Shown here: positions 3,272 through 34,452 of the stretch, one piece after another
Layout: each line of letters opens with the position of its first letter
Position numbering within the stretch: position 1 is the first letter of the stretch
Source: a bacterium HR37
GTDB lineage: Bacteria > Desulfobacterota_D > UBA1144 > Nemesobacterales > CSP1-2
DNA length: 47,648 nucleotides
NCBI GenBank assembly: GCA_002898375.1
Contig: BEIN01000020.1
Span: 1-47,648, forward strand
Reading direction: 5' to 3'
Program-made: the position numbers and the translations under genes
The notes under the pieces: model-generated
The model's database searches: none
Seen by the model: the letters and a program-made list of their open reading frames with translations, nothing else
What the model was told of the DNA's origin: nothing

Positions 3272-4990
3272 ATGATTAAATATACCTGGAGACTAATATT
3301 TGATTCTATTCTTATCGGACTAGTAGGAGCGCTTTCAGCACAGGTATTTAGATCAATGCTACACATATCCCAGAGTATTTTTTTAGGCTGGCTGGCCGGT
3401 TATAAACCCCCAACCTTACTGGAAGCAAGTGGTGAGCTTACAACACAGCTAATTGGAGAGCACGGTCTATGGTTGATCCCTGTTGCCACAACCCTTGGAG
3501 GGCTTATCTCAGGTATCATAGTGTTTAGCCTTGCCCCAGAAGCCGAGGGACATGGTACCGACACGGTTATAAAGGCATTTCACCATGCAGGTGGGTTTAT
3601 TAGAGCAAGACTGGCACCCATTAAATTAATTGCCTCGGCCATTACCATTGGATCAGGAGGAGCAGCAGGGAGAGAGGGCCCCATAGCTTTAATCACTGCC
3701 GGTCTTGCCTCCACATATGCAAGGCTTACCCGTCGTCCAGATGAGGAAAGACGCTTGCTTCTACTTATTGGTATGGCCGCTGGTCTCTCTGCTATATTTC
3801 GCTCCCCTATAGGTACTGCCATATTTGCCATTGAGGTTCTCTACAGGGAAATGGAGTTTGAAACAGGAGCACTCCTATATACCATGCTTGGCTCAATAGT
3901 GGCTTTCACAGTAGATGGCCTGTTTGTAGGCTGGAGTCCTCTTTTTCGTATCCCTTTAAACCTTGGCATCCCAAGCCTAACCGACTATTCCTGGTACATC
4001 ATGTTAGGAATAAGCAGTGGGGTAGTTGCAACTGCTTTACCTTTTGTGTTTTACAACACAAAAAGAGCCTTTGCTCTCATCCCCGTTCTGCCTCATTTTA
4101 AACCAGCTATAGGAGGGCTGGGAATAGGGCTTATAGCGATATTCCTACCCCAGGTACTCGGAGGTGGATACGGGTGGATACAAAAAGCCATTAACGGTGA
4201 ACTCTCCTATAAACTAATGCTAGCCCTGGTCTTTGCCAAGATGCTTGCTCTTAGCCTAACGGTCTCGTCCGGGGGATCAGGTGGCGTTTTTGCCCCAACC
4301 ATCTTTATAGGAGCTATGCTGGGAGGTTTTATGTCCAAGGTGTTTAACCAGACCCCTGCACCTTTTGTAATAGTGGGCATGGCAGCCGTTTTTGGTGGAG
4401 CTGCACGTGTCCCCATTGCCACGCTCCTTATGGTGGTAGAGATGACAGGGGGCTACAAACTGCTTGTACCGGCTGCACTTGCCGTTATGCTAAGCTACTT
4501 AACCCAGGTGAGGCTATCAGGGCTTATCCCGTATAAAAGCCTATACGAAGCCCAGGTTCCTACACGTATCGATTCACCGGCCCACCATCTTGAACACCTT
4601 CAATCAGCACTTCGGCTTATAGGTGAAAAAAGAGTTCCCGTACCACCTACAGTCAGCCATCTTAATCTATATGCACTTCTAACCGCTGGTATACCGGTTG
4701 ACCTGCCCGATGGAAAGCAGTTAAGTATAGGTGTGGTGGGAACACAAAGCCCCTGGATAGATAAATCTCTGGACTCAATCTCTCTATCAACTCCCGAGAT
4801 GAACAAAGAGGTAGAAATCATTGCCATTTTACGCAAGGGACAACTGCTTTTCCCCCACCCTGATAACAGGTTACAGAAAGGGGATCAGTTGCTTATAATA
4901 GCTTCACCACAATCATGGGAGTGGATAACCAGCTATCTCACGCCCATATCAAATGCAAAAGGCACCGGAGCAGTACACAATCCCTCATAA
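3272..4990 (+). CDS. ClC-family chloride channel/antiporter with TrkA-C domain
   Basis: 572 residues, ClC-type membrane core (about 1-430) followed by a RCK/TrkA-C-like regulatory domain (about 480-560, ...EIIAILRKGQLLFPHPDNRLQKGDQLLII). Anion-pore motifs are GHGTD (93-97, replacing the classical GSGIP), GREGP (133-137) with gating Glu135, and SGGSGGVFAPTIFIGAMLGG. The gating glutamate suggests a Cl-/H+ antiporter-like protein. A TrkA-C tail is more usual in cation transporters, but the combination is known in ClC proteins. There is no riboswitch upstream, so I do not call it a fluoride ClC. The ribosome site (GAAAGA) is weak. Confidence 0.9.
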   Translation: MIKYTWRLIFDSILIGLVGALSAQVFRSMLHISQSIFLGWLAGYKPPTLLEASGELTTQLIGEHGLWLIPVATTLGGLISGIIVFSLAPEAEGHGTDTVIKAFHHAGGFIRARLAPIKLIASAITIGSGGAAGREGPIALITAGLASTYARLTRRPDEERRLLLLIGMAAGLSAIFRSPIGTAIFAIEVLYREMEFETGALLYTMLGSIVAFTVDGLFVGWSPLFRIPLNLGIPSLTDYSWYIMLGISSGVVATALPFVFYNTKRAFALIPVLPHFKPAIGGLGIGLIAIFLPQVLGGGYGWIQKAINGELSYKLMLALVFAKMLALSLTVSSGGSGGVFAPTIFIGAMLGGFMSKVFNQTPAPFVIVGMAAVFGGAARVPIATLLMVVEMTGGYKLLVPAALAVMLSYLTQVRLSGLIPYKSLYEAQVPTRIDSPAHHLEHLQSALRLIGEKRVPVPPTVSHLNLYALLTAGIPVDLPDGKQLSIGVVGTQSPWIDKSLDSISLSTPEMNKEVEIIAILRKGQLLFPHPDNRLQKGDQLLIIASPQSWEWITSYLTPISNAKGTGAVHNPS

Positions 4991-31341: not shown

Positions 31342-31629
31342 ATGAAAAATATAATTAGGACAGCATTAATAGCATTTGCTCTTACTTTTGGTGGTATAAC
31401 ATCTTTTGCTACCACAAAACACAGTATGAAACAAGTAGCTACTGCTCAGGCTGAGTTTAAAGGAAAGGTAACTAAAATCGGAGGCAACCGTGTAACAATT
31501 AAAGATGAAAAAGGCAAGTTTCATATCGTTAGAGTTACCAATTCAAACATCCTAAAAGGGATTAAAATCGGAGACGAAGTTGATGTAAAGGTAGCAAAGG
31601 GTAAATCTATCACCATACATAAGCTATAA
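31342..31629 (+). CDS. Small periplasmic OB-fold-like protein
   Basis: 95 residues. Signal peptide (about 1-24, ending SFA), then a compact beta-rich domain, AEFKGKVTKIGGNRVTIKDEKGKFHIV...GIKIGDEVDVKVAKGKSITIHKL, resembling small OB-like periplasmic domains (DUF5666/CusF-like in outline, without CusF metal ligands). AAAAGGAGGT precedes the ATG. It lies in the sigma-54-driven unit and is followed by a perfect ten-base-pair hairpin. Confidence 0.8.
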   Translation: MKNIIRTALIAFALTFGGITSFATTKHSMKQVATAQAEFKGKVTKIGGNRVTIKDEKGKFHIVRVTNSNILKGIKIGDEVDVKVAKGKSITIHKL

Positions 31630-31667
31630 AAGCTACACCAACTTTCAAAGACAAACCAACTAAAGTA

Positions 31668-31694
31668 GGAAGCAGGTTAAAGCCACCTGCTTCC
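31668..31694 (+). terminator. Hairpin after the OB-like gene
   Basis: GGAAGCAGGT and ACCTGCTTCC, ten perfect base pairs with a seven-base loop. It lacks a T-run, so it may be a 3'-end stabiliser or a factor-dependent terminator. Confidence 0.55.
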
Positions 31695-31782
31695 CTAAAT
31701 AAAACAAACCTTTATCTATGATGGATAATCTAAAGTCTCAAAGTTTCCTTTATCCATAGAAGGTATTTTTTAAGAAATACGC

Positions 31783-31812
31783 TTGACCTACTGTGTTTTT
31801 GTACTTTAAAAT
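31783..31812 (+). promoter_or_regulatory. Sigma-70-like promoter of the fluoride riboswitch
   Basis: TTGACC (31783-31788), 18-base spacer, TAAAAT (31807-31812). The predicted start near 31819 falls right at the 5' edge of the aptamer. Confidence 0.55.
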
Positions 31813-31820
31813 TATGTTAA

Positions 31821-31879
31821 AGGTGATGGAGTTCACCTCTAATTACTGTCCCTCCAGGGATAGTTGATAACTCCTACCC
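31821..31879 (+). ncRNA. Fluoride riboswitch (crcB motif)
   Basis: The segment carries the conserved crcB-motif blocks in order: GGTGATGGAGTTCACC (first stem and pseudoknot loop), TCTAATTA, a CTGTCCC/GGGATAG stem and TTGATAACTCCTACC. These match the fluoride riboswitch consensus closely. The 3' strand CTCCTACCC (31871-31879) is perfectly complementary to GGGTAGGAG (31941-31949), which abuts the ATG at 31950. When fluoride holds the aptamer together, this pairing should be prevented and translation allowed. A weak CCTT/AAGG hairpin with five Ts (31920-31936) may add transcription control. Confidence 0.88.
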
Positions 31880-31949
31880 ATAAATCCTAAAGTGAGGTTA
31901 ATGTGATATGTCCTAATAGCCTTTCTAAAGGTTTTTAAAGGGGTAGGAG

Positions 31950-32144
31950 ATGAGTTACTTAAACAGCCATCCAATTACCGGATATTCCTCACGCTTTATA
32001 ACAACTATAGAGCTATACTGTAAATCTGCTAGAAGAAACAGATACAATCTTCCCAGCTTATTAGTAGAGTACGGATTCCCCAAACAAAAGATGGGAGAAC
32101 CAAAGATATGGAGGACTATAAAATGGACCTACAAAATTGCTTAG
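31950..32144 (+). CDS. Unknown 64-residue protein under the fluoride riboswitch
   Basis: 64 residues, basic and aromatic, no membrane segment, no recognised family. GGGGTAGGAG directly precedes the ATG and is the sequence masked by the riboswitch, so this ORF is the direct translational target, either as a functional protein or as a leader peptide. Its 3' end contains the GGAGG ribosome site of the next gene and overlaps that gene by 22 bases, implying coupling. Confidence 0.5.
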   Translation: MSYLNSHPITGYSSRFITTIELYCKSARRNRYNLPSLLVEYGFPKQKMGEPKIWRTIKWTYKIA

Positions 32145-32584
32145 AAATACCTAAGAACCATAGAACTTACCTCTCTATAACCATGCAGGTTCTTGAAGAT
32201 ACAATTTTAGAAGTTGAAAGAATCTTAACAAACAATCCAAGTTGTACCAAGATAATGACCGAGACATTAAATGATATCTCCCATTGCGAGACAACCCTAA
32301 TCTTACAACATATGGCAGAGATAAAGAAGCTAATAAGCCACATAGCTATTAAGCTAAAACTTGAAAAGCAGTTAAGAAAAACTAGAAACGCTATACTAGG
32401 ATCCATGACTGTTCAGAGGATAAATCTGGAGGAGATAAAGTCAAAAAAACTAAGTGGTTATGGAAGCATGCCAGATCAACTTAAAGAATACCTAGATCCC
32501 CAAGTGGATAGAATCATAAACCTGATTGAGGAAATCTGTAAGATTTTGCGGTCAGAAAAGGTAAAGGAATTTAAGGGTAAATAG
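32123..32584 (+). CDS. Helical hypothetical protein in fluoride-riboswitch operon
   Basis: 153 residues, almost entirely helical and charged (for example IAIKLKLEKQLRKTRNAI), with no membrane segment and no recognised family. I start at 32123 because GGAGG lies eight bases upstream; an ATG at 32108 is also in frame. It overlaps the preceding small ORF and ends two bases before the HEAT-repeat gene, so the three are one operon. None of the known fluoride exporters or sensitive enzymes resembles it. Confidence 0.7.
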   Translation: MDLQNCLEIPKNHRTYLSITMQVLEDTILEVERILTNNPSCTKIMTETLNDISHCETTLILQHMAEIKKLISHIAIKLKLEKQLRKTRNAILGSMTVQRINLEEIKSKKLSGYGSMPDQLKEYLDPQVDRIINLIEEICKILRSEKVKEFKGK

Positions 32585-32585
32585 C

Positions 32586-33068
32586 ATGATCCGCTACTTT
32601 TGCCCATCTTGCTGGGCTGAGGTTTCAAAAACGGAAAAAATCTGTCCTTACTGTAAGGAGAGCATTGAAAAATGGGATGAGAAAAGCTTTGTTGAAAAAC
32701 TTATAAGCTCTCTAACCCACTCCGAACGCTCCATAGTCTACAGGGCTTGTTATATTCTAGGTGAGAGACGTGAAAAAACAGCAGTTGAACTCCTTATACA
32801 TCTACTTAATAGCACTAATGACCATTTTCTTAAGGAAGAAATAGTTGAGGCTCTAGGCAAAATTGGAGATGAAAGGGCACTACCTGTATTAATTAACGAA
32901 TTGTTAAACAACCCCTCATTTCTAGTAAGAGGGAAAGCTGCCACCGCTCTTGAAAACTTTAAAGGAAGCAAAGAGGTAATTGAGGCTCTTAAAAGAGCAA
33001 TGGGAGACTGTAGCCGTTATGTTAAAGAATCTGCTCTTAAATCTCTCGATAAATTAAGAAGCAGATAA
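32586..33068 (+). CDS. Zinc-ribbon plus HEAT-repeat protein
   Basis: 160 residues. An N-terminal double zinc knuckle (C6-PS-C9 ... C20-PY-C23) is followed by HEAT/PBS-lyase-like repeats from about residue 40 (SIVYRACYILGERREKTAVELLIHLL; EEIVEALGKIGDERALPVLINELL; VRGKAATALENFKGSKEVIEALKRAM; VKESALKSLDKL). Such proteins usually bind proteins or act as scaffolds. Third gene of the riboswitch operon, two bases after the preceding stop, with no separate ribosome site. Confidence 0.85.
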   Translation: MIRYFCPSCWAEVSKTEKICPYCKESIEKWDEKSFVEKLISSLTHSERSIVYRACYILGERREKTAVELLIHLLNSTNDHFLKEEIVEALGKIGDERALPVLINELLNNPSFLVRGKAATALENFKGSKEVIEALKRAMGDCSRYVKESALKSLDKLRSR

Positions 33069-33252
33069 TGCACAGAACCCAGAATACTTGAAAATTTGTA
33101 GAAGGCCTTAACAGCTCAATAAATACCACACATATGCTTACTGAAATTGGTTTCTTAGATTCTAAGGAAGAAAAGCTCATTGGAATTTGGAACAAGCCCA
33201 GAAATTGAGGCTAAACAGATTTAAAAGATAACCCTAGTAAAAAGAGCTGGAT

Positions 33253-34452
33253 ATGGCATTAACATGGAAAAGAGCGTCGTTGGCATTTGTAGTCCTAATG
33301 GGCATAGTAAGCCTATTTTCTGATATGACGTATGAAGGGGCTCGCAGTATAACTGGACAATTCCTTGCTCTACTTGGAGCTAGTGGAGCAACTATAGGAT
33401 TCATATCGGGATTTGGGGAGTTCATAGGCTATGCAATTCGCCTTGTCTCCGGATACATAGGGGATCGAACTAAGAGATATTGGACAATAATTTTTTTTGG
33501 TTATGCAGTGAATCTAATCTCGGTTCCTCTTTTAGCACTTACAAAACACTGGAAGACAGCAGCTCTGCTAATATTTACAGAACGATTAGGAAAAGCCATA
33601 CGCACACCCATTAGAGATGCAATGCTTTCAAACGCCACTCAGGAAATCGGACATGGATGGGGTTTTGGGCTACATGAATTTCTTGATCAACTTGGTGCAT
33701 TGCTTGGTCCACTAGCAGTTTCGTTAGTACTTTATTTTAAATATAAATACCGCATCTGTTTTCTTTTTCTATTTATACCAGCTATCTCGGCACTTAGTGC
33801 ACTTACCCTATTACGATTACAATATCCAAATCCTAGAGAGTTAGAGAAAACCTCAACTGAATTAGAGATTAAGGGATTTTCCAGAACATTTTGGTTCTAT
33901 TTATTCGCAGTTGCTTTAATTGCTATAAGCTATATTGACTTTCCCTTAATTGCCTACCATCTGGATAGAATCAATATAGCTTCTAGAGAACAAATACCTA
34001 TATTCTATGCAGCTGCTATGGGAGTTAGTTCTGTTTCAGCACTCTCATTCGGATATCTATTTGATCGAATAGGATTTTTTACAACAATTATTGGTTTTCT
34101 TATGCCTATACCCTTTGCTCCTTTGATTTTTCTAGGGAACTTTTACTCTGCTCTTATAGGAGTAGTGATTTGGGGTATAGGTATTGGTGCACAAGAATCA
34201 ATTATGAGGGCAACCGTAGCAAAGATGAGTCCAATTTATAAAAGGGGCTCTGCTTATGGCATATTTCATGCATGGTATGGGCTATTCTGGTTTTTAGGAA
34301 GCACGTTAATGGGAGTTCTTTACGATACCTCAACTTTCATTCTTACTACGTTATCTGTACTAATACAACTCACCTCCATATTTGTGCTTGCTTTTATCTT
34401 CTATGTAACTCAAAAAACCAAAAACAATAGAGTTCAATCTTTTCAAGTATAG
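33253..34452 (+). CDS. MFS transporter
   Basis: 399 residues, about 12 membrane helices. The cytoplasmic loop 2-3 motif GYIGDRTKRYW and the helix-4 segment ERLGKAIRTPIRDAMLS are typical of the MFS group often annotated as multidrug or sugar-phosphate permeases. Substrate unknown. It begins 185 bases after the HEAT-repeat gene, with no clear terminator in the gap, so read-through from the fluoride riboswitch operon is possible. Base composition looks more AT-rich than in the cbb3 region. Confidence 0.85.
   Translation: MALTWKRASLAFVVLMGIVSLFSDMTYEGARSITGQFLALLGASGATIGFISGFGEFIGYAIRLVSGYIGDRTKRYWTIIFFGYAVNLISVPLLALTKHWKTAALLIFTERLGKAIRTPIRDAMLSNATQEIGHGWGFGLHEFLDQLGALLGPLAVSLVLYFKYKYRICFLFLFIPAISALSALTLLRLQYPNPRELEKTSTELEIKGFSRTFWFYLFAVALIAISYIDFPLIAYHLDRINIASREQIPIFYAAAMGVSSVSALSFGYLFDRIGFFTTIIGFLMPIPFAPLIFLGNFYSALIGVVIWGIGIGAQESIMRATVAKMSPIYKRGSAYGIFHAWYGLFWFLGSTLMGVLYDTSTFILTTLSVLIQLTSIFVLAFIFYVTQKTKNNRVQSFQV

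Follow-up and report, generated by a model that had tools for sequence, protein, structure and literature searches.

A fluoride riboswitch predicted to mask the ribosome site of a leader ORF ahead of an operon in bacterium HR37

General features of the locus

The window (the whole stretch of 47,648 nucleotides of contig BEIN01000020.1 of bacterium HR37 that was analyzed) contains a sole match to the fluoride riboswitch family RF01734, located at 31813-31883 and scoring 46.1 bits (E 1e-9), where the gathering score is 34. The genome carries two fluoride aptamers in all, the other copy lying ahead of crcB. On the strength of this match, the RNA of the window was classified as a putative fluoride-binding switch. 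GGAGTT (31828-31833) pairs with AACTCC (31869-31874), which we take, from the architecture of this class, to be the pseudoknot of the aptamer. The following features were distinguished:

31783-31812, + strand: promoter-like TTGACC-18-TAAAAT (consensus scan, 10 of 12 matches)
31813-31883, + strand: fluoride riboswitch aptamer (RF01734 match)
31828-31833, + strand: GGAGTT, pseudoknot loop strand of the aptamer (Rfam alignment)
31869-31874, + strand: AACTCC, pseudoknot 3' strand of the aptamer (Rfam alignment)
31871-31879, + strand: CTCCTACCC, anti-Shine-Dalgarno (anti-SD) strand, having CUCC in common with the pseudoknot strand
31880-31940, + strand: linker folding into an inner hairpin (z -2.3)
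31940-31949, + strand: GGGGTAGGAG, counterpart of the anti-SD strand, made up of SD-like GGGGT and a 5-base spacer (SD assignment putative)
31950-32144, + strand: leader ORF of 64 codons, no family match
32110-32114, + strand: GGAGG within the leader ORF, likely SD for ATG 32123 (from sequence)
32123-32584, + strand: first operon gene, no known family (ORF open also from ATG 32108)
32586-33068, + strand: second operon gene, zinc-ribbon and HEAT-repeat protein (same order in the related genomes G003 and G005)
33253-34452, + strand: MFS transporter, possibly of the same operon (184-base gap)

The promoter-like site would place the RNA start near 31819, at the aptamer; since the scan returned five promoter-like sites against 4.4 expected, the site is weak when taken alone. 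Upstream of the riboswitch (31342-31629) lies a gene for a small secreted-looking protein, resembling ExtJ of selenite/tellurite operons (30.3 of 52.5 bits, below the curated cutoff). A CLC-type channel is encoded elsewhere in the window (3272-4990), where no RF01734 match precedes it; the best match of this channel is ClcB-like and well below the cutoff.

The product of the first operon gene is 51-52% identical to that of the matching gene in the two relatives. It was modeled as an all-helical protein, with low confidence (pLDDT 73, pTM 0.54; five sequences), and no fold was assigned (best PDB match E 0.23). The SD proposed for ATG 32123 was assessed with a generic anti-SD sequence, which may differ from the tail of the host 16S rRNA. 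The MFS transporter shares 61% identity with one encoded in the G003 cluster and is a candidate fluoride-stress transporter.

The G003 and G005 clusters contain genes for a pyrophosphatase, an enolase, a Usp protein and a Na/H exchanger; the pyrophosphatase stands behind this type of riboswitch and the enolase follows further along the cluster. Several other protein types were observed behind fluoride riboswitches: (i) MFS proteins, 25-28% identical to that of the window, in Rhizobiales and Sumerlaeota (L020:2965-4170, L024:3-929, L138:194-1402 and L140:199-1404); (ii) DUF6062 (PF19538) in the G005 cluster (L010:224-934), with DUF6062-like proteins, recognized by eye, in Sumerlaeota (L154:1757-2404, and L020 after the MFS gene); and (iii) dynamin-like GTPases directly behind the riboswitch in Atribacteria, Nitrospirae and Sumerlaeota records (L013:4393-6174, L044:2-1486 and L156:2-1477). 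The latter three are 32-44% identical to a dynamin-like GTPase encoded inside the G003 fluoride cluster (L011:4268-6055), and that of L013 matches PF00350.

Pairing of the aptamer strand with the start region

The 3' strand CTCCTACCC (31871-31879) is perfectly complementary, over nine bases, to GGGTAGGAG (31941-31949), which ATG 31950 abuts without a gap, as the earlier note had observed. The helix has a predicted energy of -17.3 kcal/mol, and CUCC, four bases of this repressing helix, also takes part in the aptamer pseudoknot. Judged by its spacing, the GGAG touching ATG 31950 lies too near the start codon to be used as an SD in the normal way, and GGGGT (31940-31944) is the more likely functional SD, with AGGAG serving as a 5-base spacer; both relatives have GAGGT at the SD position, also with a 5-base spacer before ATG. 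The masking helix spans both the SD and the spacer.

It could be argued that the complementarity is incidental, as any SD has GGAG-like bases able to pair with CUCC. This we regard as very improbable. A CUCC/GGAG match alone is indeed trivially frequent, and the pairing is weak in four of the seven aptamers of the family, but shuffling the 80 bases after the aptamer 20,000 times, with dinucleotides preserved, gave the 9-base match in only 33 cases (8 bases in 203). None of 111 control upstream regions contained at least 8 bases of GGGTAGGAG and one contained 7, the controls being regions upstream of ORFs of at least 150 aa in the window and the family loci, a few of them counted twice as two loci overlap, and many of these ORFs may not be genes. 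Helices of 9, 8 and 9 pairs across three genera, and a strand-specific fit in the unselected planctomycete phylum (both described below), also argue against coincidence.

The 79-base hairpin of the window is more stable than its shuffles (z -4.7; 0 of 200 equally stable), as are the matching hairpins of the two relatives (z -4.5 and -5.4). The 61-base linker between the strands also folds alone, with z -2.3 for the window and z -1.5 and -3.1 for the relatives, and is less striking than the full hairpin. The earlier note had held that the switch requires no separate expression platform; this description does not suit a locus with a hairpin-forming linker of 61 bases between its two strands.

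No terminator-like site was found on the + strand in 31600-33300, and so none between the aptamer and the start codon; an intrinsic terminator acting instead of SD masking was rejected on these grounds. The window thus has an aptamer strand shared with an SD-masking helix and lacks a terminator in this interval. Given that the pairing is also kept in the two relatives sharing the operon, the proposal that the aptamer strand is itself the anti-SD is supported, and a translational ON-switch is the natural reading of the element.

The predicted effect of aptamer folding was estimated with a crude model, in which holding the pseudoknot region unpaired raised SD accessibility from 0.06 to 0.22 in the window, from 0.20 to 0.45 in G005 and from 0.12 to 0.18 in G003. 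In the same model, excluding every other partner of the pseudoknot bases carried a cost of 9 kcal/mol in the window and 13 kcal/mol in both relatives, before the pseudoknot and ligand are counted. Because of this 9 kcal/mol cost and the modest rise in accessibility, the switch is probably under kinetic control: the aptamer would fold ahead of the masking helix while the RNA is being transcribed, as in the fluoride riboswitch of Bacillus cereus.

Conservation within the family

Seven fluoride aptamers were found in four of the seven genomes of the family. Among 57 genomes of the phylum, these four were the only ones with an RF01734 match, none occurring outside the family. Representatives of two other genera, G005 (L003 and L010) and G003 (L007 and L011), keep the layout of the window: an aptamer, a linker of 55-60 bases, the masking helix, an ATG directly after it, and a small ORF. 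Their helices comprise 8 and 9 pairs, respectively, against 9 in the window, with energies of -14.1 (G005) and -14.0 (G003) kcal/mol. The G003 helix occupies a shifted position and has no outermost C-G pair; a U-A pair is replaced by U-G, and the C-G pair at the inner end by U-A. The partner strand of G005 fits the aptamer strand of G003 better than its own.

The long helix is present in only three of the seven aptamers. In the crcB riboswitch of the window genome, the helix consists of 5+4 pairs interrupted by a mismatch (-11.3); the pairing of the remaining three is limited to -7.1 to -8.6. Two of these four weakly pairing aptamers lie ahead of crcB and two ahead of a Na/H exchanger gene, the G003 exchanger copy being confirmed behind its aptamer. 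The pairing is therefore kept in the two relatives sharing the operon and is weak in the four other aptamers, and a family-wide rule of aptamer/SD pairing is not supported by these sequences.

The leader ORF and its relation to the operon

The small ORF has 64 codons in the window, 88 in G005 and 77 in G003. Comparison of the window ORF with Pfam and NCBIfam gave no match, and its identification as a known protein was rejected. In G003, the ORF ends on an intact pyrophosphatase gene (PF00719), its stop codon and the start codon of that gene overlapping as ATGA. The same ATGA overlap in G005 leads into a 32-codon remnant of this gene, with both ends present and the interior gone, placed between the small ORF and a 149-codon gene (L010). 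Two uncharacterized genes come next after the pyrophosphatase in the relatives. The pyrophosphatase is absent from the window operon, the sole match of the genome being located on another contig. The helix, the ATG and an ORF have persisted after pyrophosphatase loss in two genera. In the window, the leader overlaps the next gene by 22 bases if that gene starts at 32123, and by 37 bases if it starts at 32108.

Homology of the window leader to those of the relatives was not supported: 292 and 872 of 1,000 shuffles scored as well in local alignment, and 702 and 586 of 1,000 were as good in global alignment. The G003 and G005 leaders are weakly similar to each other (shuffles as good in 5 of 1,000 global and 29 of 1,000 local alignments) and share short stretches; in the nine N-terminal codons, six of ten base changes fall at position 3.

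These data bear on the possibility that the small ORF is itself the main target and its product a functional fluoride-stress protein, the downstream genes being ordinary operon members with ribosome sites of their own. An open frame is maintained in all three genera (64, 88 and 77 codons), and the G003 and G005 leaders have in common stretches with silent third-position differences and align better than shuffles. The window leader, on the other hand, aligns no better than shuffles with either relative, no family is matched, and the lengths differ, so that we consider a functional product unlikely. A conserved position combined with a drifting product fits a relay leader better, and the small ORF is most likely, from its arrangement, a leader handing ribosomes to the operon rather than the final product. 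The earlier view of this ORF as the direct target may hold in the sense that it would be the first thing translated; as to its product, the protein is not detectably conserved and the stop codon in the relatives overlaps the pyrophosphatase start.

Control could alternatively be exerted at the level of transcription, with SD masking as the trigger: an untranslated leader would let Rho stop the RNA without fluoride, and coupling of the leader to the next gene would be unneeded. Rho is known to act on the untranslated leaders of translational riboswitches, no intrinsic terminator is present, and the 32123 gene has its own GGAGG; the ATGA overlaps of the relatives nevertheless suggest direct coupling, and Rho-dependent control appears about as improbable as a functional small protein. 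Translational coupling through the leader remains the preferred reading, although it is not forced, as the 32123 gene appears to have a good SD of its own.

Strand-specific fit and leader ORFs in other phyla

Since no riboswitch of this type was found in the phylum outside the family, co-variation of the aptamer strand with the SD was tested in other phyla. An unselected planctomycete panel provided 49 above-threshold aptamers (51 minus two of the seed genome), of which 47 had a located pseudoknot strand (all except L118 and L119) and 45 sufficient downstream sequence. In these 45 loci, which mix terminators and ribosome sites, the strand paired with its own downstream region at -12.58 kcal/mol, against -10.33 when swapped (0 of 5,000 permutations as good). 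For the 22 loci with an SD-like partner and a start codon nearby, the values were -12.42 and -10.53, and for the SD region alone -10.30 and -8.49 (0 of 20,000 permutations in both cases); kinship among the planctomycete genomes inflates all of these permutation results, and the counts are too strong to be read as probabilities. In line with the co-variation proposed as a check in the earlier note, aptamer strands in this panel pair better with the ribosome site of their own locus than do strands exchanged between loci.

When 84,980 species were scanned for an aptamer end followed by GTAGGAG and then ATG, 37 stretches matched; Infernal detected the aptamer in 12 of the 12 genomes tested out of these matches. 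A simple rule found no T-run in 20 of the 37, of which 18 were counted, as L019 and L022 have a later T-run. The T-run-free stretches include Phycisphaerae, Atribacteria, Sumerlaeota, Rhizobiales and Acidimicrobiaceae, and several, inspected by eye, run straight into CrcB-like proteins. The layout in which the aptamer strand would pair with the SD occurs, by these sequence matches, in several phyla.

The Rhizobiales panel took in 33 of its 37 above-threshold aptamers (3 not located) and the Sumerlaeota panel all 13 (2 not located). Leader ORFs with an ATGA overlap were found ahead of (i) a CLC gene (25 codons; L077/L017, Rhizobiales), (ii) a MutS-domain gene (37 codons; L149, Rhizobiales), (iii) an NADHdh-family gene (23-25 codons; L069, Rhizobiales) and (iv) an MFS transporter gene (61 codons; L066/L024, Sumerlaeota; family tested on the MFS protein of L020). 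L020 has a similar arrangement, with a 12-base gap instead of the overlap. Such cases were chosen by eye, those of L149, L069, L077, L066 and G003 being convincing. One of the Rhizobiales genomes (G068, the source of L017) carries nine fluoride riboswitches, eight of which form four pairs in head-to-head orientation with about 80-130 bases between the members (contigs C18, C24 and C32).

The leader stop overlapped the next start in 9 of 25 cases, against 25 of 154 other short ORFs of the same leaders (Fisher p 0.024), a test of little weight: L081 and L145 look like a wrong helix or start, the helices of L124 and L078 are weak, and internal start codons inflate the controls. Under stricter helix rules, 91 aptamers yielded 38 SD helices, 25 of which lead into a short ORF, a tally that keeps visible artefacts (e.g., G003nha and L081). 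We tentatively propose, at somewhat less than even odds, that fluoride riboswitches of several phyla use a relay in which the aptamer strand hides the SD of a dispensable leader ORF, and the stop codon of this ORF overlaps the start codon of the resistance gene. That gene would be the pyrophosphatase in G003, an MFS transporter in Sumerlaeota, and a CLC, MutS or NADHdh-family gene in Rhizobiales, so that one standard anti-SD module would suit any gene.

Comparison with known systems

Translational control by fluoride riboswitches is assumed for Pseudomonas syringae and Burkholderia pseudomallei in PMC13273304, where the two serve as translational controls. The element of the window has the same aptamer class and ON logic, and likewise lacks an intrinsic terminator; its first ORF is a short non-conserved leader rather than a resistance gene. 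Terminators overlapping the crcB motif were noted by Weinberg 2010 (PMC2864571), and overlap of the pseudoknot with the terminator was studied in a fluoride riboswitch (PMC11077080). The transcriptional switches of B. cereus and Thermotoga petrophila use the same aptamer strand in an alternative hairpin, with strand displacement deciding the outcome; their partner strand belongs to a terminator with a U run, a place taken in the window by the SD region ahead of ATG 31950. Both translational fluoride riboswitches and a strand shared with a terminator are already on record, and the switch is of a known kind.

The nearest precedent for the leader-ORF relay is Mycobacterium tuberculosis ppe2, where, according to PMC11260477, a B12 riboswitch controls a translated leader ORF with an AUGA overlap with the main gene, and termination-reinitiation was shown. 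That system differs from the window in its aptamer and OFF logic, the window combining a fluoride aptamer with ON logic and a putative coupling. A leader ORF overlapping the start of the main gene, as in ppe2, is found in the window, G003 and the G005 remnant; AUGA occurs in the relatives, whereas the overlap of the window is 22 bases long. The FRM operon of Enterobacter cloacae places a fluoride riboswitch ahead of genes for pyrophosphatase, UspA, enolase and crcB (PMC5533749). Pyrophosphatase, enolase and Usp are common to this operon and the G003/G005 clusters, while the window keeps only uncharacterized genes and the MFS transporter; a leader ORF is not described in the passages of that paper that were consulted. 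In the literature searched, which covered few subscription papers, no fluoride riboswitch acting through a leader ORF was found.

Proposed mechanism and its significance

We consider it probable, by roughly two chances to one, that the locus is a translational ON fluoride riboswitch with a relay through the leader ORF into a fluoride-stress operon; the aptamer, the pairing and its conservation, the lack of a terminator, the leader and the overlaps can be read from the sequence, and fluoride binding, SD masking in cells, translation of the leader and its coupling to the 32123 gene are what we infer from it. Without fluoride, the aptamer 3' strand (31871-31879) would pair with 31941-31949, so that the start region at ATG 31950, SD included, would be hidden. 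When fluoride and Mg are present, CUCCU would be held by the pseudoknot together with a neighboring U, the helix would lose at least its five outer pairs, and ribosomes could load. These would translate the short leader ORF, whose product is probably unimportant, and its translation would open the 32123 gene, or deliver ribosomes to it, at the GGAGG inside the leader. Leader translation would also protect the message, and the downstream fluoride-stress operon would be expressed.

The switch itself is real, well supported and ordinary in kind, the leader-ORF relay being the unusual part. It provides a clean further case of one strand common to an aptamer and to ribosome control, and it makes the 32123 product, the HEAT-repeat protein and the MFS transporter candidates for a role in fluoride stress. 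If the leader relay is true, it would explain how a fluoride module can be moved ahead of unrelated genes without redesigning their ribosome sites.
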